Source: Sphaerochaeta associata (GTDB lineage Bacteria; Spirochaetota; Spirochaetia; Sphaerochaetales; Sphaerochaetaceae). From it: DNA of 64,000 nt. Made by a program: the position numbers and the translations under genes. Below are positions 35,889 through 55,642 of the stretch, in pieces. The first letter of the stretch is position 1, and each line of letters starts with the position of its first letter. The notes beneath the pieces were generated by a model. That model had not been told where the DNA came from and ran no database searches. It saw only the letters and a program-made list of their open reading frames with translations. Where the stretch lies: NCBI RefSeq assembly GCF_022869165.1, contig NZ_CP094929.1, forward strand, positions 2,604,001 through 2,668,000, given 5' to 3'.

Positions 35889-35890
35889 CC

Positions 35891-37165: not shown

Positions 37166-37174
37166 GTCTGTCTC

Positions 37175-38335: not shown

Positions 38336-38344
38336 GGATTCTCC

Positions 38345-39661
38345 TTAGAATTTCTCGATGATCGCATAGGGGTCAAAGCTGTCCATGGCCCGCCCCAACA
38401 TGGCATACCGCTCAAGCCTGGATTGCAGACTCTTACCGGAGAGCGGATTCTCGGGATGGAACAGCCCCAGTCTTGCATCCACACTGCTGAGTTTCTCATG
38501 GGCGACGAGAGCCCAGGCAGAGTCGACCAGATGGCGTGCGTTGCTCTGAAGCAACTGAGGACAATTCATGCTTTGTCGGCTGGAGTTTATATCCACCCCG
38601 CTGATCTCCATCAAACCCCGCTCCTTGGCAAGCGACTGCAGGCGGGCCATCTGCTCCTTCGTATTACGCGGCGGCATATAGGTGACTGCCGGGAAACGGC
38701 AGTCGACCAGCAGGTCCATAAGCTCGACCAGAAAAGAGTCCTCAAACTCCTCGGCCTTCTTGTCTCCGGTCACACTATCGGCGATATCCCCAAGGTAGGC
38801 ATAGGCTGCAATGGCTCCTATGCTGTTGGAGAAGTCGACCACCTTGCGGACATCCATGCACTCCTGCCTATCTGGCTGGATGAAAAAACGTGGGAGGAAG
38901 TTGCTTTTATAGACTCCCAAAAGGTCATAGGCATAGTGGGGATTGTTCTCGTCCAACAACAGGGATTGCAGTTTGGAAGAGAGGGGAAGACCGAGGGAGG
39001 AAAGCAGGAAACGTACCAGCTTCTCCCCTTTGCCGAACATCCGTATGCTCTGACCGGCCATGGCATACAGGATATGGCGCTCGGTAACCGAACCGCCTTC
39101 AGAAAAACGGGAGAGAGGAAGTACATCGCGCTCGAAGTCAAGGTCGAAACCGTAACGGCCCACCAAGGCCTGCAATGCCTCGACCTGCGCCCTGTTGCGC
39201 TTGTTCCGGACTTCCTGCAGCGGCTTGAGAAAAGAAGCGACCGCAGGAATGTGTTGTTTTGCAACACCATGGACACACATGTAGACGATGCCCTCACTAT
39301 CGGGATTGTTGATTTTCCGGTTTGCAAGGGGGGTATCGAGAAAGCTCACCCTCAGCTCAAAGCCTACGGTTGTTGCAATGCCGATGTTCCGACCGGATTC
39401 CAGCATCTCGGCGGCGGCCCCGATGCTGTCGTGGTCGATGCTGCCTACAATTCCGAGGCCTGCCTTCCAGGCCGCATACGCGGCCGCAGCAGGCTCGTAG
39501 GGGCTGAAGGAATAGGTGGTATGCACATGGTTGTTCACCTCCTCGGTGACCGTACGGCCAAGCTCACCCCCCCGTATCAGGGAGCCGAGCTTCACCGAGG
39601 CGGCCATGCGAGTCGAGGCATCACGATCATTGATATCCCGTTCAAGCGTCTGTATATCCAT
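38345..39661 (-). CDS. PHP-domain metal-dependent phosphoesterase-like protein
   Basis: This 438-residue protein has a PHP domain. The first metal motif is NNHVHTTYSFSPYEP (HxH) at about residue 43, SIDHDS gives the second, and GFELRVSF and further His/Asp residues follow. PHP proteins hydrolyse phosphate esters with two or three metals; the relatives range from histidinol phosphatase to polymerase subunits. The long C-terminal half is not recognised. AAGGAA precedes the ATG. It lies between the E1 gene and the SDR gene, 9 bases from each, so a phosphosugar or cofactor substrate is a sensible guess only. Confidence 0.78.
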   Translation of the reverse strand: MDIQTLERDINDRDASTRMAASVKLGSLIRGGELGRTVTEEVNNHVHTTYSFSPYEPAAAAYAAWKAGLGIVGSIDHDSIGAAAEMLESGRNIGIATTVGFELRVSFLDTPLANRKINNPDSEGIVYMCVHGVAKQHIPAVASFLKPLQEVRNKRNRAQVEALQALVGRYGFDLDFERDVLPLSRFSEGGSVTERHILYAMAGQSIRMFGKGEKLVRFLLSSLGLPLSSKLQSLLLDENNPHYAYDLLGVYKSNFLPRFFIQPDRQECMDVRKVVDFSNSIGAIAAYAYLGDIADSVTGDKKAEEFEDSFLVELMDLLVDCRFPAVTYMPPRNTKEQMARLQSLAKERGLMEISGVDINSSRQSMNCPQLLQSNARHLVDSAWALVAHEKLSSVDARLGLFHPENPLSGKSLQSRLERYAMLGRAMDSFDPYAIIEKF

Positions 39662-39670
39662 GGCTCTTCC

Positions 39671-42124
39671 TTAGACTCCCTTCCGGCTTGTTCTGAAGAA
39701 CTCACCGTCGGTGAAGTTGTGCTTGGGCGTATAGCCGGCGATGGGAAGAATCTGCTCGTGGATGGCATCCAGGATGCTGGAAGGCTGGGCGAAATAGTAC
39801 TCCTCCATCTCAGCAGGCGGGGTGATCCAGTTCTTCGATCCAGCAATGACAATCGGGGCATCGAGGTGCTCAAAGGCAAGTCTTGAGAGATTGCTTGCAA
39901 CCGTGTGCAGATAACTGCCGCGTTCTGCGCTGTCGGTTACCATTACACAGCGACCGGTCTTCCTGACCGACTCGATGAGCATCTCGTACTTGAGCGGGTT
40001 GATCCACCTGAGGTCGATGACCTCGGCCGACAGACCATGCTCGGCAAGCTTGTCCGCTGCTGCAATGGCGGTGTACAAGGCGGGTCCAAGGGCCACCAAG
40101 GTTACATCCTTTCCTTCGCGTCTGATGGCGGGTTCCCCTTCGGGTATCTCGTAGTAGCCCTCGGGAACACCTCCCTTTTCGAACATCTCACCGATTCCGT
40201 AGAGCTTCTGGCTCTCGAAGAAGACAACCGGGTCGGTCCCACGCAGTGCGTAGTTGAGCATGCCCTTCACATCGTAGGGAGTCGCCGGGTACATCGCCTT
40301 GAGCCCTGGAACAGAGGCTACCATGCTGGTCCACTCCTGCGAGTGCTGTGCTCCGTACTTGTTGCCCACCGACACGCGCAACACCAGCGGCATCTTCAGC
40401 ACACCGGCGCTCATGGCCTGCCACTTGGGCATCTGATTGAAGACCTCGTCTCCAGCACATCCGAGGAAGTCGCAATACATCAATTCAACGACGGCACGCC
40501 CGCCGGCCATCGCGTAGCCGACGCCGCTGCCGACGATTGCAGACTCGGCGATCGGGGAGTTGAAGAATCGGGAGGGAGGAAGCAGCTCGGTCAGACCGCG
40601 GTAGCAGGCGAACGCCCCACCCCAGTCACGATGATCCTCGCCGTAGGCGATCATGGTCGGATCGATGGAGAATCGGTGGGCCATGGCTTCGAAGACAGCA
40701 TCACGATATTGATACTGACGGGCTGCGGGATACTCCTTCCCGTTCTCGTCGTAGGCATAGCGGTTGCGCTTTGCAATCTGCTGCACCCTGGGATTCTCTT
40801 CAAGGCTCTGCAACATGGCCGGCTTTGCATCGTCGAACTTCTCGACGCTGCCGTTGGAGAACATCACAGATTCGACAAAAGCCTCATCCACCATCGGACT
40901 GAGCTTGGGATCGACGGTGATCTGCAGCGTCATTCTCATCTTCTCTTCAAGCAATACGTCCATTGCATCAAGGTCTGCCTGGACAAGCACTCCGTTTTCG
41001 ATCAGATAGTTGCCATAGGCTACAATCGGATCCTGATTGCGGAACGCTTCCAGCTCTTCCTTGCTGCGATAGGTCATTGCATCGCTTGGGCTATGGCCGC
41101 TGTAGCGGTAGGTCAGGGTATCCAGGAAGGCAGGCCCCTCACCCTTGAGCAGCAGCTCCTTCTTTCGGGCAGTTGCATCGGCTACCGCCAAGGGATTGAA
41201 GCCGTCGACCCTTTCTGTGTGCATGGAGTACTCGTTGATGGCAGCACCTACGCGTGCGGCCACCTTGTAGCCCATGGTCTCGCCGATGGGCTGGCCGCCC
41301 ATGGCATACAGGTTGTCGAAGCAGTTGAGCATGAACGGGGGATAGCCGGGATTCTCCTCCCACAAGGTCTTGTACTGGTCCATGGAGGAGAGCACCAACC
41401 CTTCATAAACAGGGCCGCGGGCAAGCGAGCCGTCGCCGATGTTGGCGATGACGATGCCCTTCTTGCGGTTGATTTTCTTATACAGGGCTGCTCCAACGGC
41501 GATGGTGCAGGAACCTCCGACGATTGCGTTGTTGGGCATGCTGCCGAAGGGCTTGAAGAACGTGTGCATCGAACCGCCCAGGCCTGCATTGAACCCCGTC
41601 TTCTTGGCATAGATTTCCGCCAATGCACCATAGAGCACAAAGTTCTCTGCGGTGTCCCGAACATCCTTGCCGGGGAAGTGGGAGGCGATTACCTTGTAGG
41701 TCTCTCCGTTCATGAATCCTTCCATGATGGCAAGCAGGTCCTTGTCCTCCATCTTATGGATGGCCGACATGCTCTTGGCCAGGATTTCTCCATGACTGCG
41801 GTGCGAACCGAAGATCTGATCCTCGGGCTCAAGCACCATGGCCTGTCCTACAGCAGCACTCTCCTGCCCCGCTGAAAGGTGGGCGGGACCCTTGTGATTA
41901 TAGCTGATCCCCTGATACACCCCTTCTTTCTTGATGGTGTCGAGCATGGTCTCGAATTTGCGGATAAGCAGCATGTCATAATAGGCACGAACCAGGCGGT
42001 CCTTTCCGTATAGCTTGAGCTCCTTCTTGAAATCACTCTGGTACTGGTTCACCGGAATGGAAGGGGTCTTGATAATCTGTTTTTCCCTCAGTGTTGCAGG
42101 GTCGAACGGTAGTGTTTTGGACAT
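39671..42124 (-). CDS. 2-oxoacid dehydrogenase-type E1, alpha and beta subunits fused
   Basis: This 817-residue thiamine-diphosphate enzyme fuses the alpha (about 30-450) and beta (about 480-800) chains of the pyruvate/acetoin dehydrogenase E1 family. Alpha has GSHRSHGEILAK, the TPP motif beginning GDGSLARGPVYEGL and the loop YRYSGHSPSDAMTYRSKEE. Beta has YGEDHRDWGGAF, FNSPIAESAIVGSGVGYAMAG and GAQHSQEW. The distance from GDG to the closing Asn is about 38 residues instead of 24-27, and the usual NN is DN. It works with the E2 and E3 genes just upstream. The true substrate could be pyruvate, acetoin or a keto-sugar. Confidence 0.85.
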   Translation of the reverse strand: MSKTLPFDPATLREKQIIKTPSIPVNQYQSDFKKELKLYGKDRLVRAYYDMLLIRKFETMLDTIKKEGVYQGISYNHKGPAHLSAGQESAAVGQAMVLEPEDQIFGSHRSHGEILAKSMSAIHKMEDKDLLAIMEGFMNGETYKVIASHFPGKDVRDTAENFVLYGALAEIYAKKTGFNAGLGGSMHTFFKPFGSMPNNAIVGGSCTIAVGAALYKKINRKKGIVIANIGDGSLARGPVYEGLVLSSMDQYKTLWEENPGYPPFMLNCFDNLYAMGGQPIGETMGYKVAARVGAAINEYSMHTERVDGFNPLAVADATARKKELLLKGEGPAFLDTLTYRYSGHSPSDAMTYRSKEELEAFRNQDPIVAYGNYLIENGVLVQADLDAMDVLLEEKMRMTLQITVDPKLSPMVDEAFVESVMFSNGSVEKFDDAKPAMLQSLEENPRVQQIAKRNRYAYDENGKEYPAARQYQYRDAVFEAMAHRFSIDPTMIAYGEDHRDWGGAFACYRGLTELLPPSRFFNSPIAESAIVGSGVGYAMAGGRAVVELMYCDFLGCAGDEVFNQMPKWQAMSAGVLKMPLVLRVSVGNKYGAQHSQEWTSMVASVPGLKAMYPATPYDVKGMLNYALRGTDPVVFFESQKLYGIGEMFEKGGVPEGYYEIPEGEPAIRREGKDVTLVALGPALYTAIAAADKLAEHGLSAEVIDLRWINPLKYEMLIESVRKTGRCVMVTDSAERGSYLHTVASNLSRLAFEHLDAPIVIAGSKNWITPPAEMEEYYFAQPSSILDAIHEQILPIAGYTPKHNFTDGEFFRTSRKGV

Positions 42125-42147
42125 AATAACTCCTTATCTTTGCATCC

Positions 42148-43500
42148 TTACAGGGTATGGTCGAGCTGGAAACAAGCATCCTTGATCAGCTCGGACACAC
42201 TGGGATGGGGAAATACGATTTCTTTGACATCCTGGACACGCAACTCGGCCTCGATAAGTGCCGAAGCGCCCCAGATCATCTCACTGCTGTAGGGTCCGAG
42301 CAGGTGGACACCGACGATGGCACCGGTCTGTGCATGGCAGATCACCTTTACCAAGCCGGCACCCTTTTTGCCGTGCTCGGCCAAGAACCTTCCATTGGAA
42401 CGCATCTGCACTGTCTGGCTCTTGACGGGGATGCCAAGCTTCGCAGCCTCCGCTTCGGTGATGCCGCAGCCCGCAGATTCCGGATTGCCGTAGACCGCCC
42501 AAGGGATTGCCTGATAGCGCATTCGCATCGATCTGGAACCGAATATATTGGAGACGGCAACCTCCGCCATGCGCGAGGCGCTGTGGGCCAGCAGCGAGCG
42601 GCCGTTGACATCACCGATGGCATAGACCGTGGCAAGGTTTGTCTGCATGCGGTCATTGACCACCACACCCCGCCTGTCGATATCCAGCCCCAGCTTCTCA
42701 AGGCCCTGGGTGTTGGGCTTGCGGCCCACGCTCATCAGCACCATGGAAGCTGCAATGGATTTCTTCTCACCCTTTGCATCGGTATAGAGCACGGATTCGG
42801 GTGTAATTTCCTCGACCTTGCAGCCAAGGTGAAAATCGACGGCCTTGAGCTCGCGGCGCATGAGCTTTGCAAACTCACCATCCATCATCGGAAGGATTTC
42901 ACTCATCATCTCGATGACCGTGACCTTGGTCCCTATCATGGAAAAGAAGGAAGCGAATTCAATGCCGATGACACCGCCGCCGATGACCACCAGCGAAGAC
43001 GGGATTTCCTTGATCTCCAATATCCCGTCGCTGGTCAACACATGATCGAGCTTGGAGCCGGGTATCGGGGGAACGAAGGGAGAACTGCCGGTTGCAATGA
43101 TCAGGTACGAACCCTCGTAGACCGTATCGCCTACCTGCACATGATGGGCGTCAAGAAACTGCGCCTCGCCGAACACGGTCTGCACCTTGTTCGATTTCAT
43201 CAAGAACTCGATGCCGCTTCTCAGCGTCCTTATCGTCTCTTCCTTCCAAGCCATGGCATCCAAAAGGCTGAAGGAAACGCCCTCTGCCTGCACTCCGAAC
43301 TGCTTGCCGTCCTGGGCGTGGGCGTAGAGCTTGGCACTGTTGAGCAGACTTTTAGTGGGGATGCAGCCGCGGTTGGTGCAAACTCCCCCGAAGTGCTCCT
43401 TCTCAATGATGAGGACCTTTTTACCCAGTGCCCCTGCCCGCTCAGCGGCGACGTATCCGCCGGGGCCGCTGCCCACCACAATCAAATCAAAGCTATCCAT
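42148..43500 (-). CDS. lpdA: dihydrolipoyl dehydrogenase (E3)
   Basis: This 450-residue flavoprotein reoxidises the lipoyl groups of E2 with NAD+. It has the FAD loop VVGSGPGGYVAAERAG, the redox disulphide GGVCTNRGCIPTKS, the NAD loop VVIGGGVIGIEFASF, and the C-terminal catalytic His in HPHPSVSE form (FPHPSVSEL: His-Pro with Glu). TAGGAG precedes the ATG. It lies between E2 (9 bases) and the fused E1 (23 bases), so it is dedicated to this complex. Confidence 0.92.
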   Translation of the reverse strand: MDSFDLIVVGSGPGGYVAAERAGALGKKVLIIEKEHFGGVCTNRGCIPTKSLLNSAKLYAHAQDGKQFGVQAEGVSFSLLDAMAWKEETIRTLRSGIEFLMKSNKVQTVFGEAQFLDAHHVQVGDTVYEGSYLIIATGSSPFVPPIPGSKLDHVLTSDGILEIKEIPSSLVVIGGGVIGIEFASFFSMIGTKVTVIEMMSEILPMMDGEFAKLMRRELKAVDFHLGCKVEEITPESVLYTDAKGEKKSIAASMVLMSVGRKPNTQGLEKLGLDIDRRGVVVNDRMQTNLATVYAIGDVNGRSLLAHSASRMAEVAVSNIFGSRSMRMRYQAIPWAVYGNPESAGCGITEAEAAKLGIPVKSQTVQMRSNGRFLAEHGKKGAGLVKVICHAQTGAIVGVHLLGPYSSEMIWGASALIEAELRVQDVKEIVFPHPSVSELIKDACFQLDHTL

Positions 43501-43509
43501 ACCGTTCTC

Positions 43510-44811
43510 CTAAAGGGCCAGCAACAGGTCGATCGAAGCGATATTGTCCATCAGGGCCTTAAGGAAGCGTGCTGCATCAGCACCATCGACGGCTTGGTGG
43601 TCCATCGTCAACGACAGGCCGATGTGTTCAACAAAGATTACATCGCCATCCTCGTCCTCAATCGGTTTGAGAGCGATGGTTCCAACCCCCAGAATGGCAA
43701 CCTCGGGCACATTCAGAACCGGGGTGAACGCCTCGATGCCGAAAGAACCGACGTTGCTCACGGTGAAGGTTGACCCAGAAAGCTCGTCAGGCGATGCCGT
43801 ACCGGCCTTGCATTTGCCGATAAGGGCCTTGGTTCCTTCACTGAGTTGTTTCAGACTCAACAGCTCGCTGTTACGAAGAACCGGCACCAGCAGACCCTTC
43901 GGTGTATCGGTGGCAACACCGAGATGAACGTGGGCAAAGCGCAGGATCTTGTCACCCAGGAAGTGGGCGTTGAAGGCAGGGAACTGCACAAGGGTGCGAC
44001 TGACGGCAAAGAGCACCAGGTCGTTGATAGTGATGCCATTCAGTCCAAGCTCAGGCTTTGAAGCCTTGAAACCGGCCCTGAGGCGCTTGAGCGCCCGGGC
44101 ATCGGCGAATGCATGCAAGGAGAGCTGGCAGGTCGAGTGAATCGACTCCATCATTCTCCTGGCGGTAACCTTTCGGATACCCTTCACTGCGATTTCAGTG
44201 ACATCCTCGACAACAGCTGATGCAACGGGCTTGGCTGCAAGGTCGCTTGAGAGCACCCTGCCCCCGATGCCGCTGCCGTTTGCGGGAGGCTGAAGGCCTT
44301 GCGCAAGAGCCTGCTGGCGGGCAACCGGTGAAAGCGGCTGGCCTTTGGCAGAGAGCACATCGCGTTCAATGATTCTTCCCTTGGGTCCGGTAGGCTGGAC
44401 AGTCGAGAGAGAAATACCCGCAGAAGCGGCCAAAACCCTGGCACGCGGACTGGCGCCGATGGCCTCGGTCGCAGTAACAACAGCGGCCTTCTCAGCCACT
44501 GCAGGAGCAGCCTCTTTTACACGCTCCTCTTGTTGCTTCGGCTCGTCAATGGCAACCGTCTCGACCTTCTCCCCGGCTTCGCCGACAACGGCGATGGGAA
44601 CCATGACCGGAACATCCGCACCTTCTTCAAACAGAAGGGCGAGTACCACACCCTCGGCAGTCGATTCAACATCGATGGTGGATTTATCTGTCTCGGCCGA
44701 GCACAGCACATCACCGACGGCTACCTTGTCCCCGAGCTTTACGTTCCATTCCACGATGATGCAGGACTCGACTGAGTTTCCCTGCTTGGGCATCACAACC
44801 TGTTGTGCCAT
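43510..44811 (-). CDS. 2-oxoacid dehydrogenase-type E2 acyltransferase
   Basis: This 433-residue E2 has one N-terminal lipoyl domain with the modified Lys in ETDKSTID (about residue 43) and a linker. An E3-binding domain follows (SPRARVLAASAGISLSTVQP then GPKGRIIERDVL), and then the catalytic domain. The active-site motif near the end is LTMDHQAVDGADAARFL, with Gln where most E2 proteins have Arg (DHRxxDG), while the catalytic His and Asp are kept. It transfers the acyl group made by E1 to CoA. It is the first enzyme gene after the DeoR regulator, 13 bases downstream. Confidence 0.9.
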   Translation of the reverse strand: MAQQVVMPKQGNSVESCIIVEWNVKLGDKVAVGDVLCSAETDKSTIDVESTAEGVVLALLFEEGADVPVMVPIAVVGEAGEKVETVAIDEPKQQEERVKEAAPAVAEKAAVVTATEAIGASPRARVLAASAGISLSTVQPTGPKGRIIERDVLSAKGQPLSPVARQQALAQGLQPPANGSGIGGRVLSSDLAAKPVASAVVEDVTEIAVKGIRKVTARRMMESIHSTCQLSLHAFADARALKRLRAGFKASKPELGLNGITINDLVLFAVSRTLVQFPAFNAHFLGDKILRFAHVHLGVATDTPKGLLVPVLRNSELLSLKQLSEGTKALIGKCKAGTASPDELSGSTFTVSNVGSFGIEAFTPVLNVPEVAILGVGTIALKPIEDEDGDVIFVEHIGLSLTMDHQAVDGADAARFLKALMDNIASIDLLLAL

Positions 44812-44824
44812 CTATGTCTCTCCT

Positions 44825-45580
44825 CTACTGTGCGATTATGACCTCGACACCCTGCTCCTCGAGCAAGGCGATGAGGTCGGTCGGAAATCCACTGTCTGTG
44901 ACAATGGTATCAATCTCTGTTACCGGCATGATCCGTACGAACCCCCGGTTGCCCACCTTCGATGAATCGACGCAAAGCACCCTTCTGGTTGCCTGGCCGC
45001 ACATGCGTTGGACCACCTGGGCATTCTCCACCAAACTGGTGGTAAGCCCGTGCTCCATGGTGAACCCGTCGGTGCCGAAAAAAGTAGTCGTTACATGGTA
45101 ATCTTCAATCTGGCTGACTGCGGCCGGCCCCACAAGAGCTTCAGCCTGGGGGCGGTATTCACCACCGACGAGCGTAATCACCAATTGGGTATTGGCTCTC
45201 GCATATGGCAGTAAAAGGGTGGAGTTGGTCACCACTTTTATATTGCGCTTGCCGAAGAGATAGCGGGGTATGAGGGAGCAGGTGGAACCGTTGGTGATCA
45301 TGATGCAGTCATTGTCCTTGACCAAGGTGGCTGCGGTTTTTGCAATCAACTCCTTCTGGGAGTTGTTCGACCCATCGCGGAAGGAGGCCTGCGGCGACGA
45401 GGCCGCCACCACCCTTCCATGCGAGCGGACGACCAGGCCCTTGGCATCGAGGTCCCTGAGGTCCCCTCGGATGGTAACGGCAGAAACACCCAACTCCTGA
45501 CTGAGCCGGGTGACCGGGTACTCCTCTCCACTTTTCAGCAGCTGGAGAATTTTTTCCTCTCTGGGAGAAAGGCCTAACAT
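44825..45580 (-). CDS. DeoR-family transcriptional regulator
   Basis: This 251-residue regulator has an N-terminal winged helix (SPREEKILQLLK, then LSQELGVSAVTIRGDLRDLD with the recognition helix) and a C-terminal phosphosugar-sensing domain (ITNGSTCSLIPRYL, TLVGGEYRP, FFGTDGF). DeoR proteins usually repress sugar genes and are relieved by a phosphorylated intermediate. ATG at 45580 has AGGAG upstream; the frame opens 7 codons earlier at a TTG. It has its own promoter with repeated elements and leads the unit from E2 to the rhamnulokinase. Confidence 0.9.
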   Translation of the reverse strand: MLGLSPREEKILQLLKSGEEYPVTRLSQELGVSAVTIRGDLRDLDAKGLVVRSHGRVVAASSPQASFRDGSNNSQKELIAKTAATLVKDNDCIMITNGSTCSLIPRYLFGKRNIKVVTNSTLLLPYARANTQLVITLVGGEYRPQAEALVGPAAVSQIEDYHVTTTFFGTDGFTMEHGLTTSLVENAQVVQRMCGQATRRVLCVDSSKVGNRGFVRIMPVTEIDTIVTDSGFPTDLIALLEEQGVEVIIAQ

Positions 45581-45600
45581 CCAGTTCGCTCCTGCTTTCA

Positions 45601-45641
45601 ATTTACTTTCGTTATGCTTTCGATTCTATTATGCTTTACCG
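45601..45641. promoter_or_regulatory. repeated elements at the DeoR promoter (candidate autoregulatory operator)
   Basis: Three related units lie in one direction: ATTTACTTTCG (45601-45611), TTATGCTTTCG (45612-45622) and TTATGCTTTACCG (45629-45641). The first two abut with an 11-base period, one helical turn; the third overlaps the promoter spacer. TTTCG/CGAAA cores are common in DeoR-family sites. Confidence 0.55.
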
Positions 45642-45651
45642 AATAAATCAA
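45623..45651 (-). promoter_or_regulatory. promoter of the DeoR-led unit
   Basis: On the minus strand TTGATT (45651-45646), a 17-base spacer and TAGAAT (45628-45623) form a good sigma-70 promoter in the 91-base gap after rhaM. The DeoR-to-rhaB genes can thus be transcribed apart from the rhamnose transporter. Confidence 0.65.
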
Positions 45652-45671
45652 GCAGAAATGAAAGAAAATTC

Positions 45672-45983
45672 TTAATCCATGTGAAAGACTTCTTCCAGGG
45701 GAGTTGAGACCGGCGAGTTGTCAGGATGGGTCTCCATCAAGTCGGCCATATAGGCCCACCACTTCTGGACTATGGGGTTTCCACCCAGACCCTGGGAGCC
45801 TGCCTGGCCCTTGACCTGCTGGAATGCAAAGAGTTTTCCCGTTTCACGCTCAAGGAAAATGGTGTAGTCGAACACCCCGCTTTCACTGAGCAGAGCCTTC
45901 AGCTCGGGCCAAATCTCATTGTGACGCTTCTGATACTCAGCCTCACATCCTTTCTTCAACTGCATGACAAATGCTTTTCGCAT
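45672..45983 (-). CDS. rhaM: L-rhamnose mutarotase
   Basis: This 103-residue protein interconverts alpha and beta L-rhamnose, speeding entry into the isomerase. It matches RhaM throughout: KKGCEAEYQKRHNEIWPEL with the catalytic His21 (E. coli His22), LERETGKLFAF, and the closing segment QKWWAYMADLMETHPDNSPV. AGGAGG precedes the ATG at 45983, 9 bases after the permease gene. Its presence identifies the upstream ABC transporter as rhamnose-specific. Confidence 0.93.
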   Translation of the reverse strand: MRKAFVMQLKKGCEAEYQKRHNEIWPELKALLSESGVFDYTIFLERETGKLFAFQQVKGQAGSQGLGGNPIVQKWWAYMADLMETHPDNSPVSTPLEEVFHMD

Positions 45984-45992
45984 GGAATCCTC

Positions 45993-47030
45993 CTAGTGTT
46001 GTGCCTGCAACCTGAGCTTCCGGTTTGCCTTGTACAAGTCCAGCAGTCTGGGAAGCAGGACGGCAGTGATCAACAGGCTTCCGATGACGATGGTCATCAG
46101 CGTGCCGCTGAACTTGAGCAGTCCCATGCCGAACTTTAAATAGCCGACGAGCAAGGAACCTACGAAAACACCGAAGACGGTCCCCTTTCCTCCGGTGATC
46201 GCAACACCGCCGAGAACCACCAAGGTGATGATTTCCAAATCCCATCCGGTTGCAATGTTGGAACGGACCGAAAGAATACGGCTGGCAAGCAGCATTGCAG
46301 TAAGACCGCAGAAGAAACCGGTGACGGTGAAGTTGATGATTCTGGTGAGCTTGACATTCACACCGCTGAAACGGGCTGCCTCCGCACTGTTGCCGATGGC
46401 GTACAGCCTCCGCCCGTAGGTGGTCTTGTGCAGGATGAAGGCGAAGAGGAGCATCAACGCAAGATACAGCACAAACTCATAGGGAATGATGGTATTCGGG
46501 ATGAACTCCTGGCCGAAAATGCCGAAGCCATCAGGAAAGCTGGTACGCGCCTGGTCGCCCAAAAGTCCGATCGAGATGCCGCGATACATGGATTGGGTTG
46601 CCAGGGTGACGGCGATGGCGGGCATGTTCAGACCGGTGATCATCACACCATTGAAGAGACCGGCAAGGGTTCCCACCAACAGGGAGATGAAAAGCAGGGA
46701 GGGAATCGAGGCCCCTGCCTGGGCTGCAGTGCCTACCGCATAGGCGCACAGGGCGATGATGGATGCGATCGATATGTCAATATCGCCGCACATGATGATG
46801 AAAATCATCGGCAGGGCCATGATCGCCTTCTCGCTGAACTGGAAGGTTGCATTCATTAAATTGAACCAATCCAGGAAGTAAGGGGTCCGGCCTGAGAAGA
46901 AGAGAACCATCAACGTGAAGATGATGACTAGAATCACTTCCCACTTGGTAAAGAACTCGATAAGCCGGTTCTTGACCGACATTTCGTCGATGAGTCGGCT
47001 TTTTGCAACTAAATCCTGTCTATCAGCCAT
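45993..47030 (-). CDS. rhaQ: rhamnose ABC transporter permease
   Basis: This 345-residue permease of the ribose/autoinducer-2 type has the signature loops MCGDIDISIASIIALCAYA, LYAIGNSAEAARFSGVNV and LVVLGGVAITGGKGTVFG. It pairs with the second permease gene 3 bases upstream, as in the rhaSTPQ transporters of rhizobia. A cytoplasmic N-terminal segment of about 30 residues precedes helix 1. The symbol follows operon position; the P and Q labels could be exchanged. Confidence 0.85.
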   Translation of the reverse strand: MADRQDLVAKSRLIDEMSVKNRLIEFFTKWEVILVIIFTLMVLFFSGRTPYFLDWFNLMNATFQFSEKAIMALPMIFIIMCGDIDISIASIIALCAYAVGTAAQAGASIPSLLFISLLVGTLAGLFNGVMITGLNMPAIAVTLATQSMYRGISIGLLGDQARTSFPDGFGIFGQEFIPNTIIPYEFVLYLALMLLFAFILHKTTYGRRLYAIGNSAEAARFSGVNVKLTRIINFTVTGFFCGLTAMLLASRILSVRSNIATGWDLEIITLVVLGGVAITGGKGTVFGVFVGSLLVGYLKFGMGLLKFSGTLMTIVIGSLLITAVLLPRLLDLYKANRKLRLQAQH

Positions 47031-47033
47031 AGC

Positions 47034-48035
47034 CTACCCCCTCCTCTGTGCCAGCAATTTGGCACTCTTGCGTTGGTCGGACAGGGTATTCAGAGCCAGG
47101 GCGACCAGAATGATCAAGCCTTGGACGAAGGTCTGCCAGAATACCGACAAGTAGATTACCGGAAGCGCATTGGTGACCACTCCCAGAAAGAGGGTGCCCA
47201 AGACCACACCGATGATGCCCCCGGCTCCACCGGAGAAATTCACGCCTCCAAGCACGCAGGCAGCCACTGCCTGCATCTCGAAGCCGGTGGCCATCTCATT
47301 GACGGCCGAAGCATACCGGGCCGTCCACAAGGCCCCGGCAAGGCCGCAGAGCGTTCCACTGATGAGAAACACCACAACCCTGACCCGGTTCTCATTCACT
47401 CCTACGAACTTTGCCGCTGTGGGGTTGCCTCCGATGGCATACACCTCACGCCCGGTTCGGGTATAGCGACTGAAATAGTACAAGACGGTAATGACCACAA
47501 AGGCTATCCATAGGAGATACGAGAGCCCGAGGAAGGTGGTGCGGGGAAAGCCGATGTAGGAAGGAGACATCTCATGGGCGGTGACCCAGGTGCCCTTGCT
47601 GAGCAGAAAGGTAAGACCGCGATAGATGTTCACCGTTCCAAGGGTGGTGATGATCGGAGGAATCTTGCCGTACGCCACCAGTACACCATTGAAAAGGCCC
47701 ATGAGAAGCCCGATGCCCATGCCCACCAACAGAAGGACAACCGGAGGCACCGATGCATACGATTCGTTGATCATGCCACAGGCCATGCCGGTGAAGGCGA
47801 TGATGGAACCGACCGAAAGGTCGATGCCGTTCGAAAGGATGACGAAGAACTCACCGATGGCAACAATCGAGAGAATGGCCATATCGTTGAGGATTCGATT
47901 GATATTCTCCCCTGAAAGGAACTGGGGGGAACGGATGGTGATGGGAACCAAGAGGACCAACAACAGGAGCATCAGGGTCAGCTCCCTGCGCTCGAGGGCC
48001 TTTTTCAGCAGGGAGGATGGAGAGCGTTCAAGCAT
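47034..48035 (-). CDS. rhaP: rhamnose ABC transporter permease
   Basis: This is a 333-residue permease with ILSNGIDLSVGSIIAFTGMA, VYAIGGNPTAAKFVGVNE and AACVLGGVNFSGGAGGIIG. ATG at 48035 follows AGGAGG; the open frame extends 32 codons further inside the ATPase gene and is not used. It overlaps the ATPase gene by 8 bases and is followed by the second permease after 3 bases. It probably forms a heterodimeric channel with it. Confidence 0.87.
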   Translation of the reverse strand: MLERSPSSLLKKALERRELTLMLLLLVLLVPITIRSPQFLSGENINRILNDMAILSIVAIGEFFVILSNGIDLSVGSIIAFTGMACGMINESYASVPPVVLLLVGMGIGLLMGLFNGVLVAYGKIPPIITTLGTVNIYRGLTFLLSKGTWVTAHEMSPSYIGFPRTTFLGLSYLLWIAFVVITVLYYFSRYTRTGREVYAIGGNPTAAKFVGVNENRVRVVVFLISGTLCGLAGALWTARYASAVNEMATGFEMQAVAACVLGGVNFSGGAGGIIGVVLGTLFLGVVTNALPVIYLSVFWQTFVQGLIILVALALNTLSDQRKSAKLLAQRRG

Positions 48036-49545
48036 GGGCGGCCTCCTGGGCAACAGTGGCAATGGCGTAACGCATGACCGTCTCGGCAGTACACTTTTGA
48101 GCATCGAGAATGGCGGTCTGATAGCCTTCATGCATGACCAGAATCCTGTCGCTCATTCCCATTACCTCAGGCAGTTCACTGGAGATGAGGATGACAGCCA
48201 CTCCTTTTGCAGCCATATCGCAGATGAATTGGTGCACCGCTGCCTTGGTGGCGACGTCGATTCCCTTGGTCGGTTCATCGAGAATGAGAATCTTGGGCTT
48301 TGTTCCAATCCATTTGGCCAGAACGACTTTCTGCTGGTTGCCGCCCGAGAGGGTCTCGGCATCGACATGGTAGCCGGCCGACTTGATCTCCATCTGGTTC
48401 CCATGCTCCAACACATAGGTTTTCTCAGCCTTGGAGCGGGTGACCATCCCCTTGAAGGAGAGAAGCTTGAGCACCGGCAGGGAGATGTTGTGCGTCAGGC
48501 TCATTTTCAGCACCAGACCCTGCTTCTGCCTGTCTTCAGGAACCAAGGCGATGCCCTTATGCATACTCTGTCTCGCACCTTTAGGCATAAAAGCCTTGCC
48601 CTCGAGATACATGGTACCTTCACTGGCCTTGTCAATGCCGAAAATGGTACGGACGACCTCACTGCGGCCGGCGCCCACCAAGCCGAACAGTCCCAGGATC
48701 TCCCCTTCATGCAGGGTGAAGGAGATGTGCTTGAAGGCACCGAGCTGGCTCAGCTTCTCGACCTTGAGTATCTCCTTGCCGAGAACCGGGGTGTGCTCGG
48801 GATAGAGCTGGTCGATCGAGCGGCCGATCATCATATTGATGATCTGGTCCTCGGTACTCTCCTTGACCTTTCCTTCGCCGATATACTGTCCGTCACGGAA
48901 GACGGTGTAATAGTCACAGATGGTAAAAATTTCATCAAATTTATGGGAGATGAACAGAATTGCTTTCCCGCTCTCCTTGAGGGAGCGAACAATGCGGAAG
49001 AGATCTTCAACCTCACGTCCTGTGAGGGCGCTGGTCGGCTCATCCATGATGACCAGTTTGGCATCGAGGGAGAGCGCCTTGGTAATCTCAACCATGTGCC
49101 GTTTGGCAACGCTGAGGTTCTTGACCAACGTATCAGGGTCGATATCCAGCTGCATTCGTCCAAGCAGTGCCTTGGTCTGTTCGGTCATTGCCTTCCAGTC
49201 AAGCTTCTTGGTCTTGGGATTACGCAGATGGTGCCCCATGAAAATATTCTCGGTGACGCTGAGCTCGGGAAACATCGAGGCTTCCTGGTGAATGGCTACG
49301 ATTCCGGCCTGCTGGGCGTCGATGGCGTTCTTGAAGGAGATTTCCTTCCCTTCTAGCAGAATTTTCCCGCCGGTGGGGATATATACACCGGTGAGGATTT
49401 TCACCAAGGTTGACTTCCCCGCCCCGTTCTCACCGATGAGCGCATGCACCTCGCCCGAGCGCAGGGACAGCTTCACATCGTCCAGGGCCCGGATGCCGGG
49501 AAATATCTTGGTCAGATTGGTTACTTCCAACAATGCGTCCGGCAT
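48028..49545 (-). CDS. rhaT: rhamnose ABC transporter ATPase
   Basis: This 505-residue duplicated ATPase has a first half with GENGAGKST, NLSVAKRHMVEITKAL and LVIMDEPTSALTG. The second half has the usual degenerate Walker A (GLVGAGRSEVV), an intact LSGGNQQKVVLAKW and ILILDEPTKGIDV. AAGGAGG precedes the ATG. It is 68 bases from the binding-protein gene, with a hairpin between. The assignment to rhamnose comes from rhaS and rhaM in the same operon. Confidence 0.9.
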   Translation of the reverse strand: MPDALLEVTNLTKIFPGIRALDDVKLSLRSGEVHALIGENGAGKSTLVKILTGVYIPTGGKILLEGKEISFKNAIDAQQAGIVAIHQEASMFPELSVTENIFMGHHLRNPKTKKLDWKAMTEQTKALLGRMQLDIDPDTLVKNLSVAKRHMVEITKALSLDAKLVIMDEPTSALTGREVEDLFRIVRSLKESGKAILFISHKFDEIFTICDYYTVFRDGQYIGEGKVKESTEDQIINMMIGRSIDQLYPEHTPVLGKEILKVEKLSQLGAFKHISFTLHEGEILGLFGLVGAGRSEVVRTIFGIDKASEGTMYLEGKAFMPKGARQSMHKGIALVPEDRQKQGLVLKMSLTHNISLPVLKLLSFKGMVTRSKAEKTYVLEHGNQMEIKSAGYHVDAETLSGGNQQKVVLAKWIGTKPKILILDEPTKGIDVATKAAVHQFICDMAAKGVAVILISSELPEVMGMSDRILVMHEGYQTAILDAQKCTAETVMRYAIATVAQEAAHA

Positions 49546-49613: not shown

Positions 49614-50621
49614 TTAGAAAGTGAACTGTTCTACGTTGTCCTTGTTGAATACGTACGGATAGCCCATGAAAATGATTCCGTCCTTCTCAACCTTCATGGA
49701 GTTCATGCGGCCTGCGGGAATGGACTCGCCGGCAGCTCCCTTGACGGTACCGTCAATGAGGCCGTTGAGGATGTAGGTGGAGGTGTAGCCGAGGTCGACC
49801 GGATTCCACAGAGCCATCTGGCGGCAGGTGCCGTCGAGGATGTAACCCTTCATTTCCGAAGGCAGTCCAAGACCGGTGACTTCCACGATACCGGCCTTGC
49901 CGGCATCCTTGACAGCCTGTGCGGTTGCAAGCAGACCAACAGTGGTCGGGCAAATGATCGCCTTGAGGTTGGGGTACTTCTGCATCAAGGAGACAGCTTC
50001 ACGATAGCTCTTGTCCGGGGCGTCGTCGCCATAGACGACTTCCACGAGCTTCATGTTGGCATACTTGGCATCCTTGATCTCTTCCTTCATCCAATTAATC
50101 CAGAGGTTCTGGTTGGTAGCCTGGGCGGAAGCGGAAAGAACAGCAACATCACCCTTGGAGCCGGTAAGCTCGGCGGCAAGCTGAATCTGCTGGCGACCGA
50201 TGAGCTCGGCATTGCTGGGAAGCAGGTCGACGATGCGTCCGCCTACGTTGATACCGGAGTCAAAGCTGATGACCTTGATGCCGGCTGCCATGGCCTTCTT
50301 GGTGACGGGAATCAGGGCATCGGCGTCGTTTGCGCTGATGGCGATTCCGGCGACTCTCTGTGCAATGAGGGTCTCGATGATCTCGATCTGGCCTTCAGCA
50401 GTTGCCTGGGGAGGACCCATGTAGGTGGTCTTGATACCGCCAAGCTCGGCAGCAGCTTCCTGGCTGCCCTTGAACACTGCATCAAAGAAAGCATTTCCCA
50501 TGCTCTTTACGAGAATGACAATTTCCTTCTCCGATTTTACTGCCTGTTCCTTGGCTCCCTGGGCGAAAAGACCAGTGACGACCAAGCTGGCGATGAGTAC
50601 AAACAACAACGCTTTCTTCAT
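49614..50621 (-). CDS. rhaS: rhamnose ABC transporter substrate-binding protein
   Basis: This 335-residue periplasmic protein has a Sec signal (MKKALLFVLIASLVVTGLFA) before QGAKEQ. The binding core matches rhizobial RhaS and the AI-2/rhamnose group: LVKSMGNAFFDAVFKGSQEA, GPPQATAEGQIEIIETLIAQ, SANDADALIPV and the late GYPYVFNKDNV. It is first in the rhaS-T-P-Q-M operon, with AAGGAG before the ATG. Its promoter region carries the same 64-bp box as rhaA. This rhaS is the transporter gene and not the E. coli activator of that name. Confidence 0.88.
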   Translation of the reverse strand: MKKALLFVLIASLVVTGLFAQGAKEQAVKSEKEIVILVKSMGNAFFDAVFKGSQEAAAELGGIKTTYMGPPQATAEGQIEIIETLIAQRVAGIAISANDADALIPVTKKAMAAGIKVISFDSGINVGGRIVDLLPSNAELIGRQQIQLAAELTGSKGDVAVLSASAQATNQNLWINWMKEEIKDAKYANMKLVEVVYGDDAPDKSYREAVSLMQKYPNLKAIICPTTVGLLATAQAVKDAGKAGIVEVTGLGLPSEMKGYILDGTCRQMALWNPVDLGYTSTYILNGLIDGTVKGAAGESIPAGRMNSMKVEKDGIIFMGYPYVFNKDNVEQFTF

Positions 50622-50734
50622 ACAAACTCTCCTTTTGCGATATCATTCCGGCAGTACCGGAATCTATTTGTACCTGGGCATGCCAGGGCAAACAGCACGA
50701 TTCGATATAGCTGGTTGCTATATCTTATCTATAA

Positions 50735-50798
50735 GTGTGACAGCTTTTTGGAATTCCGCAATAACTGTATAGTCATTTTTTAGCACTATTTTATCATG
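50735..50798. promoter_or_regulatory. rhamnose regulator box, copy at the rhaS operon
   Basis: GTGTGACA (50735-50742), exactly 26 bases, then a 30-base block from ATAGTCA (50769) to ATTTTATCATG (50798). The 30-base block matches the copy at 54222-54251 in 27 positions. It lies 110-180 bases upstream of rhaS, whose transcript runs leftwards. AT-rich -10-like sequence (TATAGA/GATATA on the minus strand) follows on the rhaS side. The ATG that ends the block opens no convincing gene here. Confidence 0.75.
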
Positions 50799-51823: not shown

Positions 51824-52903
51824 TTACGTTGAGGAGACCTTGGAACGGTACTTTTCCACTTCCCAGTTGCGGATGAAATCAATCATCGGCTCATCCATGA
51901 AAAGAGGTCCTCCGAAGCTCTGTGCATACACGCTTATCGCAACGCTGTCCAGAAAGAGGGGCATCGGCTTCTCGCCCAGCGAGAATACTCCCAGGTTCTG
52001 TACACATACAATCTTCGCCCTCCCGCCGTTTTGCGTTTCGAAAGCCTCGAAAGCCTTCGCCACATCTTCGTTTTCTCCAACCCAAAGCGGCTTGAACCCG
52101 GCATAGACGATATGGTCGGGCGTGAAGGAGGAGGAAACATCGACGAATGAAGCCTCGTCCTTGAGGCAGCGCTCATACTCCTTGTTCATGGCAAAGAGGA
52201 TTCTCTCGCTTGTATAGCGACCGAGCACATGCTTTACAGCCTCAACCTTGGCCTGATCAGAAGCGACAGGTGTAAAATCAGGTTTTCGCACCAATACCGA
52301 TTCTATACGACCCATCACGCTCTCATACTGAGAGGCAATCTCCTCAAGAGTTGCCCCCCCGACAAAAATGCCGTGGTTCTGCAGGAAAATCAGGGAACAC
52401 ACCGCTCCGGTCTGCTTGGTATGGACGGCCATCCTCTCTCGCACGATATTGGCAAGGATGAAGCCGGGCTTGACCAATTCAATCCAGAGGGCTTCAGGGA
52501 AAAGTCTTTCTACGGCGGATTTTCCTTCCTTGGCGCAGGTCACCCCGTTGACCATGGCAGGATGCAGATGCACCACATAGTCAAACGGCAGCAAAGCGTG
52601 AAGCAACGCCTCGACCGACGGGCGGGCGGTCTCGCCTTCCAGGCGGCAGGCCATCATGTCCTTCAACACCTCATCTTCCCGCGTATCGTCATCCTGACTG
52701 TACTGCTTGCACCATATGCCTTCCATTTTGGCAAGGTCCATGCGTACAAAGCCCGATTTTCCAATGGTTCCCAGTGCATGCCCGCTGGCCTTCACATACA
52801 TGACTCCCTGCTCCTTACAGGAGGTGTTTCCACCTCCAAGCAGGACAAATGAAGCATCCGAGCCATACCGGCGCGAATGCTCGATCAATGTTTGCAAACT
52901 CAT
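51824..52903 (-). CDS. class II aldolase, stand-alone rhamnulose-1-phosphate aldolase type
   Basis: This 359-residue protein corresponds to the N-terminal aldolase part of the bifunctional rhamnulose-1-phosphate aldolase/lactaldehyde dehydrogenases (B. subtilis YuxG type). Seen are LGGGNTSCKEQGVMYVKASG, RPSVEALLHALLPFDYVVHL followed by HP (zinc His pair), and LIFLQNHGIFVGGATLEE. The expected product is dihydroxyacetone phosphate plus L-lactaldehyde. It stops at NWEVEKYRSK, where the fused enzymes cross into their SDR half. Its start overlaps the rhaA stop and its stop abuts the BASS gene. Confidence 0.83.
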   Translation of the reverse strand: MSLQTLIEHSRRYGSDASFVLLGGGNTSCKEQGVMYVKASGHALGTIGKSGFVRMDLAKMEGIWCKQYSQDDDTREDEVLKDMMACRLEGETARPSVEALLHALLPFDYVVHLHPAMVNGVTCAKEGKSAVERLFPEALWIELVKPGFILANIVRERMAVHTKQTGAVCSLIFLQNHGIFVGGATLEEIASQYESVMGRIESVLVRKPDFTPVASDQAKVEAVKHVLGRYTSERILFAMNKEYERCLKDEASFVDVSSSFTPDHIVYAGFKPLWVGENEDVAKAFEAFETQNGGRAKIVCVQNLGVFSLGEKPMPLFLDSVAISVYAQSFGGPLFMDEPMIDFIRNWEVEKYRSKVSST

Positions 52904-54150
52904 GACCGCTCCTTCAGAACGCTCTCTTCGTAGTCGCTGATAATGTCGATCAGCTTGCTCTCCTGCGGAGCATTGAACCGGGTGCAGAACTCATTCCAAA
53001 CCGCGCCGAAGGGCAATACGCTCTGCAGCTCCAGCAGTGCCATCGTTGCATACCCGTTTCCCGACTCCTCGTATTCTATCAGCTGGTCGATCGGCTCAAG
53101 CAAGGCGAAAAGCAGGGCTTTACGCATGGCGCGGATACCGGTGACCCAGGCCCCGATGCGATTGATCGAAGCATCAAAGAAATCCAAGCCGATGTGTGTG
53201 GATTCAAGCTTGCCGCTGCGAACCAACTCCTCGGCAACCATCTTCACCTTGTCGTTGAACAACACCACATGGTCGCTGTCCCAGTGCATAGGCCTGCTTA
53301 CATGCAGAAGCACCTCGTCATCAAAGAGAAGAATGGAAGAAAGCTTGTCGGAAATATCCTCTTCAGTGTGAAAATGCCCCATATCGATGCACAGCATCTT
53401 GTTGTTTCGCGCAGCATAGTTCATATAGAACTCGTGCGAGCCCACTACGAAGGATTCACTGCCGATGCCGAACAGCTTGGTCTCCAATGCATCGCGCATA
53501 TACTCTGAGGGATACTCGGTTTGGAAAATCTCGTCCAGGCTCTCTTTGAGAATCGAGCGGTATCCGAACTTGTCCACGGTATGGTTCTTGGCCCCGTCGG
53601 GCACCCAGGTGTCCAGAATGCAGGGAGAACCCATCTGCTGTCCGATCCAGGATGCAATCTTTCTACAGCGCTTGGCGTGCTCGATCCAGAAACGGCGTAT
53701 TCTCTCGTCCTTACTGGAGAGGGTATACCCGTCGTCGGCCATCGGGTGGCTGAAGAAGGTGCCGTTGAAATCAAAGGCAACCCCTACTTTCTTGCCCCAC
53801 TCCACCCAACCTTGGAAATGTGCTTCCTCGATCTGGTCGCGGTCGACGAAGGCCGAACCGAATTCGCCATAGCTTGCATGAAGATTCACCCGGTGGGTGC
53901 CGGGTACGAGAGAGAGCACTTTCTCCAGGTCCGAACGCAGCTGCCCAATGGTTTTTGCCTTGCCGGGATAGTTGCCGGTGGTTTGAATGCCGCCGCCGCC
54001 CAGTTCAGCATCGGGTCGTTCAAAGCCCCCTACATCGTCGCCCTGCCAGCAATGGATCGAGATGGGAATTGCCGCAAGCTGTTCCAATACCTCATCGGTA
54101 TTCACGCCATACTCGGCGTATATGGTTTTGGCTACTTCATACTCTGACAT
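52900..54150 (-). CDS. rhaA: L-rhamnose isomerase
   Basis: This 416-residue isomerase converts L-rhamnose to L-rhamnulose and matches E. coli RhaA (419 residues) along its length: ISIHCWQGDDVGGFERP, GGIQTTGNYPGKAKT, LNLHASY-like VNLHASYGEF, the metal-site segment CIDMGHFHTEEDISDKLSS, and LHVSRPMHWDSDHVVLF. ATG at 54150 follows GAGGAGG with 6 bases between; five upstream codons are discarded. It heads the rhaA-aldolase-BASS unit and diverges from the AraC activator, sharing the regulator box. Confidence 0.95.
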   Translation of the reverse strand: MSEYEVAKTIYAEYGVNTDEVLEQLAAIPISIHCWQGDDVGGFERPDAELGGGGIQTTGNYPGKAKTIGQLRSDLEKVLSLVPGTHRVNLHASYGEFGSAFVDRDQIEEAHFQGWVEWGKKVGVAFDFNGTFFSHPMADDGYTLSSKDERIRRFWIEHAKRCRKIASWIGQQMGSPCILDTWVPDGAKNHTVDKFGYRSILKESLDEIFQTEYPSEYMRDALETKLFGIGSESFVVGSHEFYMNYAARNNKMLCIDMGHFHTEEDISDKLSSILLFDDEVLLHVSRPMHWDSDHVVLFNDKVKMVAEELVRSGKLESTHIGLDFFDASINRIGAWVTGIRAMRKALLFALLEPIDQLIEYEESGNGYATMALLELQSVLPFGAVWNEFCTRFNAPQESKLIDIISDYEESVLKERS

Positions 54151-54187
54151 GATAGGCCTCCTCAAGTACGTTGCACTATATACAATA

Positions 54188-54251
54188 GTGTGACATTTTT
54201 CTAAAGATTTACCTTGACAGAATAGTCAATTTCTAGCACGATTTTATCATG
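54188..54251. promoter_or_regulatory. rhamnose regulator box, copy at rhaA/AraC-regulator
   Basis: GTGTGACA (54188-54195), 26 bases, then ATAGTCA (54222) through ATTTTATCATG (54251), the same arrangement and spacing as at 50735-50798. The rhaA transcript starts on the GTGTGACA side, where TATATA on the minus strand can act as -10. The final ATG of the box is the first possible start of the divergent regulator, which may therefore control itself. Confidence 0.75.
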
Positions 54252-55115
54252 TCGAGTTTCACCCTGTCCGAATCCATGTTCTTCCGGGAAAACCGTCTTC
54301 CCATCAAGGTGCTGCTTCGGGACCCGGAAATTCCCTTCTCCTTGCACAGCCACGATTTCTATGAGCTTGTGGTAGTGGTTTCAGGGAAAGGCACCCATCT
54401 CTTGTCCAATGACAGCCGGCATTTGCAGGAAGGCATGGTATTCTTCATCAAGCCGGGGACGGCCCACGGCTATACGGATATTGACAATCTCGTTCTCTAC
54501 GATGTCCTGATCGGGCGTAAAGCCCTCAGCGGTCACCTCAGCGACCTGAGCGAGGTTTCCGGCTTTCAGGAAGTCTTTTTACAAAGCAATGGTGAAATAC
54601 CTTTGGTGCGAATGAACTGCCACCAGATTGCGGAAATCATCGCCCTGGTCAGTGCAATAAAGGAAGAGTCAGAAAAACTGGATTACGGCAACGGGGCTTC
54701 AGCGATGGCCTACTCCAAGCTGCTTCAGCTCTTGATCCTCATCAGTCGCTTCCACACCGCCCGAAAAGGAGGCGTGTTCCAGCCCGACCAACGCCTGGAG
54801 CGGGTCATCGCCTTCATGGAACAAAATATCGACCGGAGTCTTTCATTGGAGGAGTTGGTCGCCTATTCCAACATGAGCGCGAGCACGCTCAACCGACAAT
54901 TCAAGCTCTCAACCGGCTGGTCGCCGGTAGATTTTCACATCCACCGGCGCATCGCCTTTGCCTCCACATTGCTGCTCACCACAAACCTGAGCATCGAGCG
55001 CATCAGTGAAAAAACAGGCTTTTCCGATGCCAATTACTTTGCCAGGCAGTTCAGAAACCACATGCAGATGAGCCCGAGGCAGTATAAACAGCTGTGGACG
55101 ACCCCCCATCCTTGA
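54249..55115 (+). CDS. AraC-family activator, RhaS/RhaR-like
   Basis: This 288-residue regulator has an N-terminal cupin sensor resembling E. coli RhaS/RhaR (HSHDFYELVVVVSGKGTH, MVFFIKPGTAHGYTDIDNL). The C-terminal double HTH reads LSLEELVAYSNMSASTLNRQ and IERISEKTGFSDANYFARQF. It is the probable rhamnose-responsive activator of rhaA and the rhaS operon. The start is open: ATG at 54249 lies inside the regulator box and ATG at 54276 begins MFFRENRLP, the stretch that aligns with relatives; neither has a Shine-Dalgarno sequence. It abuts the converging fucU gene. Confidence 0.88.
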   Translation: MSSFTLSESMFFRENRLPIKVLLRDPEIPFSLHSHDFYELVVVVSGKGTHLLSNDSRHLQEGMVFFIKPGTAHGYTDIDNLVLYDVLIGRKALSGHLSDLSEVSGFQEVFLQSNGEIPLVRMNCHQIAEIIALVSAIKEESEKLDYGNGASAMAYSKLLQLLILISRFHTARKGGVFQPDQRLERVIAFMEQNIDRSLSLEELVAYSNMSASTLNRQFKLSTGWSPVDFHIHRRIAFASTLLLTTNLSIERISEKTGFSDANYFARQFRNHMQMSPRQYKQLWTTPHP

Positions 55116-55541
55116 TCAGACCACTACGCCTTTCTTGAGAATGATGTTTGCGTACAGCGCCGATTCCCCGGTAGCTACGACGGCATACGCCTTGCGGCTG
55201 CGCTCATAGAAGGCAAACCGTTCCAGATGTTCAAAGCCCTTGAATGCAGGATCGCCGGCCTTGGCTATGGTCTCATACGATGCCCAAATCGGAGTTTGGA
55301 CAGTGTCGCCGGCAACCTTCTCCATCAAGAACGCATTGGGGGCATAGCTGTCCAAGGGGAAAAGTTGAAGGACGGCCTTCAGAATTTCTTCGACACCATG
55401 ACCGTCGAGGCGAACCACACGACTGTTCATCGAAGCAGCGGGAAAGTTTCCATCACCGATGACCAATTCATCACCGTGACCCATCTCCATGAGAATCTTC
55501 AAGAGTTCGGGACTCAGAATGGAAGGAATAGTTTTCAGCAT
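55116..55541 (-). CDS. fucU: L-fucose mutarotase
   Basis: This is a 141-residue member of the RbsD/FucU family that interconverts fucose anomers. His22 in EMGHGDELVIGDGNFPA matches the catalytic His of E. coli FucU, and the C-terminus YANIILKKGVV completes the site. It belongs to FucU rather than RbsD by the FPAASM segment and its neighbour fucI. AGGAG precedes the ATG at 55541. It diverges from fucI across 101 bases that hold a LacI-type operator, so both are probably controlled together. Confidence 0.9.
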   Translation of the reverse strand: MLKTIPSILSPELLKILMEMGHGDELVIGDGNFPAASMNSRVVRLDGHGVEEILKAVLQLFPLDSYAPNAFLMEKVAGDTVQTPIWASYETIAKAGDPAFKGFEHLERFAFYERSRKAYAVVATGESALYANIILKKGVVV

Positions 55542-55564
55542 AGGACGCTCCTGTACAATTTGGA

Positions 55565-55593
55565 TTGCAATTGCCTCAATCGTGTGCCATACT
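55565..55593 (+). promoter_or_regulatory. promoter of fucI
   Basis: TTGCAA (55565-55570) and CATACT (55588-55593) are 17 bases apart. The operator at 55602-55615 would cover the first transcribed bases, a typical repression position. Confidence 0.6.
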
Positions 55594-55601
55594 ACACATG
55601 A

Positions 55602-55615
55602 TGTAAACGATTACA
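55602..55615. promoter_or_regulatory. LacI-type operator at fucI
   Basis: TGTAAACGATTACA keeps the TGTAAACG half and TTACA end of the palindrome TGTAAACGTTTACA at 34313, differing at one base. It lies between the fucI promoter and its ribosome site. Confidence 0.65.
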
Positions 55616-55642
55616 TTCCTATCATATACCAAGGGGGACAAT

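Follow-up and report, generated by a model that had tools for sequence, protein, structure and literature searches.

The 64-base box found twice in the window, the 64,000-nucleotide stretch of the Sphaerochaeta associata genome analysed here, is best explained in full as one unit consisting of an AraC-type operator and the promoter that it would control (probability about 0.85). Comparison of the sites across genomes suggests that the regulator encoded at 54249 uses two subunits to bind two half-sites of 16-17 bp, arranged as a direct repeat 21 bp (two helical turns) apart, with the proximal half-site ending over the -35 region of a leftward promoter that has a weak -35 and the extended -10 TGT-CACACT. 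The inducer, as judged from the neighbouring genes and the protein family, is most likely L-rhamnose or one of its derivatives; once this is bound, the regulator would act as a class II activator that recruits RNA polymerase, and the fixed gap of 26 bases would be the distance needed for contact between activator and polymerase. In the copy next to rhaA, the half-sites cover the promoter and the start codon of the regulator gene itself, araC, and binding there should also repress this gene.

Results

The element GTGTGACA lies at 50735-50742 and at 54188-54195, and in both copies 26 bases separate it from a 30-base block, ATAGTCATTTTTTAGCACTATTTTATCATG (50769-50798) in the one and ATAGTCAATTTCTAGCACGATTTTATCATG (54222-54251) in the other, which are identical at 27 of 30 positions with three mismatches. 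The repeat that the sequence-only reading had described was exact at 50735-50798 and 54188-54251, and the two copies do share one orientation relative to the leftward genes, as it had stated. Searching the whole 3.55-Mb genome with a block pattern of 23 fixed bases and at most three mismatches gave three matches (reversed control, 0). At the third (G000:C1:1038112) GTGTGACA is also found 26 bases before the block, and the 64-base unit is thus present three times in the genome. In profile searches of the genome these three sites scored 61.5-66.5 bits and the next match 13 bits.

The copy at 54188-54251 precedes rhaA, the gene for L-rhamnose isomerase (52900..54150, reverse strand; NF002203, 619 bits, over the cut-off), which has GAGGAGG before its ATG at 54150 and a longer frame from a TTG at 54165. 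Leftward after rhaA come a gene for a rhaD-like class II aldolase, similar to the aldolase portion of RhaD/RhaE fusions, and one for an SBF transporter. The copy at 50735-50798 had been assigned to a "rhaS operon"; it does precede a leftward rhamnose operon, but the gene concerned encodes a rhamnose ABC substrate-binding protein (49614..50621, reverse strand; TIGR02637, 405 bits against a cut-off of 342) and not a regulator. This is the first gene of a long leftward run, the remainder of which (34461..49545, reverse strand; putatively part of a single transcript) holds an ABC ATPase, two permeases, rhaM (over the cut-off), a DeoR-type regulator, 2-oxoacid dehydrogenase E2, E3 and E1, a short-chain dehydrogenase, a zinc alcohol dehydrogenase and a rhamnulokinase-like FGGY kinase. 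The third copy lies upstream of genes for a sugar-binding protein and two ABC permeases, against which a GH88-family gene on the other strand ends; we take the latter to be of the unsaturated rhamnogalacturonyl hydrolase type.

The aldolase and the short-chain dehydrogenase, which are fused in RhaEW/RhaD-ADH proteins, are here separate, in two gene runs of one putative regulon (51824-52903 and 37175-38335, reverse strand), and no Pfam family matches the C-terminal 160 or so residues of the aldolase. The 2-oxoacid dehydrogenase complex (39671-44811, reverse strand) is encoded in the part of the rhamnose run that separates the DeoR gene from rhaB, and its E1 has the alpha and beta parts fused (817 residues). 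This run also holds an open frame of 438 aa (38345-39661, reverse strand) that had no NCBIfam match at the threshold used. Genes for L-fucose mutarotase and L-fucose isomerase (55116-57469) follow directly after the rhamnose regulator and carry no copy of the box.

The regulator itself (54249..55115, forward strand) has the C-terminal double helix-turn-helix and N-terminal cupin-type ligand domain of the AraC/XylS family, with HTH_18 (PF12833, 69 bits), HTH_AraC (PF00165, 64 bits) and AraC_binding (PF02311, 44 bits) all above cut-off. Among the NCBIfam models it is nearest to RhaS, yet it reaches only 135.8 bits with NF010028 against a cut-off of 288. An orthologue is present in 25 of the 26 genus genomes, and a profile of the 63-base unit finds the box in the identical set of 25, true sites scoring at least 37.8 bits and the remaining matches at most 23.8. 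The sole genome without box and araC orthologue (G008) has a DeoR-type gene; this genome is incomplete (87%) and its contig ends just upstream of that gene. A scan of related genomes for the two-block pattern had been suggested, and the corresponding 35-base pattern gave 47 matches in 24 of the 26 genomes (control, 0), in addition to the profile matches. Constant spacing in sister species had been set as a test beforehand, and 22 diverse genus sites aligned without a gap across 63 columns. Outside the genus, the strict pattern occurred within the family in only 2 of 113 genomes, both times at rhaA/araC pairs, and searching 12 distant genomes with a wider pattern returned mostly known loci and chance matches.

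Throughout the genus the genes adjoining the site are rhamnose genes. It is very likely that the regulon here comprises three operons, namely rhaA, the rhamnose ABC/rhaM/rhaB run and the sugar ABC transporter beside the GH88-family gene. The earlier proposal that the box defines the regulon of the regulator at 54249 is in keeping with the three sites in the genome and with the joint occurrence of site and regulator.

The 30-base block most likely represents most of an AraC-type operator, with one half-site and part of the other in direct repeat at a period of 21 bp. At the rhaA/araC copy, the candidate distal half-site is TGATAAAATCGTGCTA read leftward (54234..54249, reverse strand), corresponding to columns 1-16, which are near-invariant in 21 genus rhaA sites; its position and the 21-bp period recur in 45 distant loci. 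The candidate proximal half-site, TGACTATTCTGTCAAGG (54212..54228, reverse strand; conserved columns 22-38), is 21 bp from the distal one, overlaps the rhaA -35 region and is followed after 19-20 bp by a -10 hexamer. In front of the rhamnose ABC transporter operon, the sequence and the genus sites point to TGATAAAATAGTGCTA (50781..50796, reverse strand) as the distal half-site, and the proximal one would be TGACTATACAGTTATTG (50759..50775, reverse strand), in which TTGC is a possible -35.

The distant loci were those of 72 AraC relatives outside the genus, from Planctomycetes, Verrucomicrobia, Lentisphaerae, Kiritimatiellae, other spirochaetes and Enterobacteria. In 45 of the 72 upstream regions, TTGTGCTA- and TTGTCAAGG-like boxes with at least 13 of 17 matches stood at a period of 21; each of the other spacings between 12 and 32 reached 13/17 in at most 15 loci. 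Among the unselected bases to the left of the two boxes, the match at lag 21 was 0.517 within loci versus 0.413 between loci (z 6.1), and the within-locus excess was clear at this lag only, with no comparable excess at others. The repeat is perfect over 16 bases in one locus (L130), where TTTTTCGTAAGATAGT recurs exactly at 21 bp, and TGGCCAGA is repeated in another (L111). For the genus sites alone, comparison with a column-shuffle null gave p values of 0.03 and 0.09 for the lag-21 repeat, a modest excess, and of 0.013 and 0.007 for lag 11, a stronger one, which suggests that the genus half-sites are degenerate; the question of lag 11 versus lag 21 in the genus is resolved by what the distant loci indicate. 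These 45 loci were chosen with TCAAGG, whose letters are also those of the araC -35, and part of the cross-phylum signal may therefore be araC promoter; it is the genus sites away from araC that tell operator and promoter apart. The 21-bp spacing is kept by orthologues in Planctomycetes, Verrucomicrobia and Lentisphaerae, and rhaA was within the fetched DNA in 27 of the 45 distant motif loci. Imperfect half-sites, the period and rhamnose genes downstream were all found here, as in AraC-type RhaR operators with a 21-bp direct repeat. The box had been attributed to the regulator at 54249 as its operator, and the co-occurrence in the same 25 of 26 genomes speaks for this part of the claim, but the half-sites would be the 21-bp direct repeat and not GTGTGACA and the block.

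Most likely GTGTGACA is not a half-site but the promoter's own -10 element. The extended -10 of the predicted rhaA promoter, TGT-CACACT (GTGTGACA; 54187..54195, reverse strand), appears as TGNCANACT at a fixed distance in the genus and has TANNNT in its place in distant relatives; for the transporter operon promoter, the sequence and the genus sites indicate the same TGT-CACACT at 50734..50742 (reverse strand). TGTCACACT would be the letters of this -10 element, and leftward transcription is predicted to start at about 54180 (rhaA) and about 50727 (transporter operon). CACACT is a poor -10 hexamer. The conserved TG and the following A, A and T occupy the positions of an extended -10, and GTGTGACA is for this reason best read as a -10 region. 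A TANNNT hexamer is found at the place of GTGTGACA in 38 of the 45 distant loci, 20 bp after TCAAGG in 29 and 19 bp after it in 9, other offsets occurring in 0-4 loci; at the +19 place the genus sites have TGN-CANACT and the locus L070 has TGG-TAACCT. The proximal half-site would end at about -33, over the -35, and class II activators, AraC activators among them, have their site over the -35. If GTGTGACA is the -10, the fixed 26-base gap would be the geometry of a class II activator and its promoter, and no second binding site is needed. The site at the -35 together with the fixed -10 distance that characterises such promoters was found in 38 of 45 loci and without gaps in the genus.

It has to be considered whether GTGTGACA could be the operator of a second regulator, either the DeoR-type protein (44825-45601) or a CRP-like one, so that the box would join two regulators. 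In most genus genomes the transporter run includes a DeoR-type gene, and TGTGA resembles half a CRP site, but the window shows no enrichment of TGNCANACT (11 matches versus 7.6 expected), and readings as a CRP-type palindrome or a DeoR operator were rejected because the second half of the palindrome is absent from all three copies, the TGTGA core is variable in the genus and -10-like hexamers replace the element in other phyla. We regard this possibility as improbable, and as slightly more improbable the original suggestion that a single AraC-type operator has GTGTGACA and the 30-base block as its two half-sites, 26 bases apart. The spacing is indeed constant in all copies and GTGTGACA is well conserved at sites away from araC. 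However, the block alone has one half-site and part of a second at a period of 21 bp; both half-sites lie on the side away from GTGTGACA; the third base of GTGTGACA is free at araC-adjacent genus sites (pattern TGNCANACT, with TGGTAACCT in L070); and in homologous promoters it is the -10 hexamer that aligns with the element, TANNNT being at +19/+20 in distant loci as expected of a -10.

The operator at the rhaA copy also contains what is predicted to be the araC promoter, with TTGACA as the -35 (54214..54219, forward strand) and, after a 17-bp spacer, CACGAT as the -10 (54237..54242, forward strand), a hexamer that reads TATTAT or TATGAT in some Lentisphaeria. The 42 distinct genus sites were divided into 21 adjoining araC and 21 elsewhere (L070 being placed with araC by its letters alone). 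Both groups retain TGAYAAAATNGTGCTA, TGACTATWCWGT and TGNCANACT, and they differ mainly in having TGTCAAGG at araC-adjacent sites versus GTYATTGC elsewhere. TGTCAA, which in reverse is the TTGACA located 17 bp before CACGAT, occurs in nearly all of the 21 araC-adjacent sites and in none of the 21 away from araC. The least probable explanation is that the conserved block is the sigma-70 promoter of araC (TTGACA, 17 bp, CACGAT) with no operator, as the geometry at the araC copy, the TATTAT or TATGAT of some relatives and the start codon or Shine-Dalgarno where the transcript would begin could suggest, but the block is equally conserved at the 21 genus sites without adjacent araC, where TTGACA is absent, conservation reaches into the spacer (TGAC), and rightward genes start neither at 50781 nor at L003, so that the site is not merely an araC promoter. 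The functions of operator and araC promoter overlap and are not mutually exclusive.

The A of the araC ATG is seven bases past CACGAT. In 53 loci, the predicted araC start carries CA in 46 and an ATG exactly there in 21, while several others have AAAAAGGAG directly after the predicted start and an ATG at +14; in some loci without an ATG at the start, a Shine-Dalgarno lies just past it. The CA is weak evidence, since the half-site carries TG there even at sites without araC. From the distance between CACGAT and the ATG and from the predicted starts, araC is probably transcribed from inside the operator, and in Sphaerochaeta its mRNA would probably be leaderless, starting at its ATG. The position of the regulator's promoter and ATG inside the operator at 54188-54251 implies autoregulation, which would take the form of autorepression.

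Discussion

The results supply a concrete operator, with its regulon, for the use of rhamnose by Sphaerochaeta and by a large set of Planctomycetes, Verrucomicrobia and Lentisphaerae, and they illustrate that spacing held constant between two elements can reflect the geometry of a promoter rather than a second binding site. At even odds, three functions share about 40 bp of DNA: the activator operator of the catabolic operon, the -35/-10 promoter of the regulator and its leaderless start codon. This overlay would couple activation with autorepression, and would have been conserved all the way from Spirochaetota to the Planctomycetes-Verrucomicrobia group, including related AraC loci by xylose-isomerase-like genes. 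In Kiritimatiellaeota (L199) and in Lentisphaerae (L202) an AraC gene and a xylose-isomerase-like gene have the 21-bp architecture between them, and the site type is thus not limited to rhamnose. A Verrucomicrobial sulfatase gene (L201, position 1500) has a single site with GTTA for GTCA and no adjoining araC, and resembles the Sphaerochaeta sites away from araC. In S. associata, a paralogue of the regulator (48% identical; G000:C1:646204-647055) is divergent from another gene and has a different box, but also TGACACACT.

Our literature search found no paper on rhamnose regulation in Sphaerochaeta and no such motif for this genus or for the Planctomycetes/Verrucomicrobia/Lentisphaerae group. 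As in the case of E. coli RhaS and RhaR at rhaBAD, rhaT and rhaSR, the regulator belongs to the AraC family, its neighbours are rhamnose catabolic genes and the activator site would lie upstream of the promoter. The RhaS-type architecture expected by the sequence-only reading, however, did not hold: the motif was absent from the ten Enterobacterial loci with rhaA among the 72 distant loci, RhaS loci included, and the Sphaerochaeta operator is a direct repeat at lag 21, whereas in E. coli the 17-bp half-sites bound by RhaS and RhaR form inverted repeats, according to Rodionova 2013 (PMC3870299). The same study describes direct-repeat operators for the AraC-family RhaR of Bacillales, Bacteroides and Enterococcus, and makes no mention of Spirochaetes, to which the present operator belongs. 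It is these RhaR operators that the Sphaerochaeta site resembles in its direct-repeat architecture.
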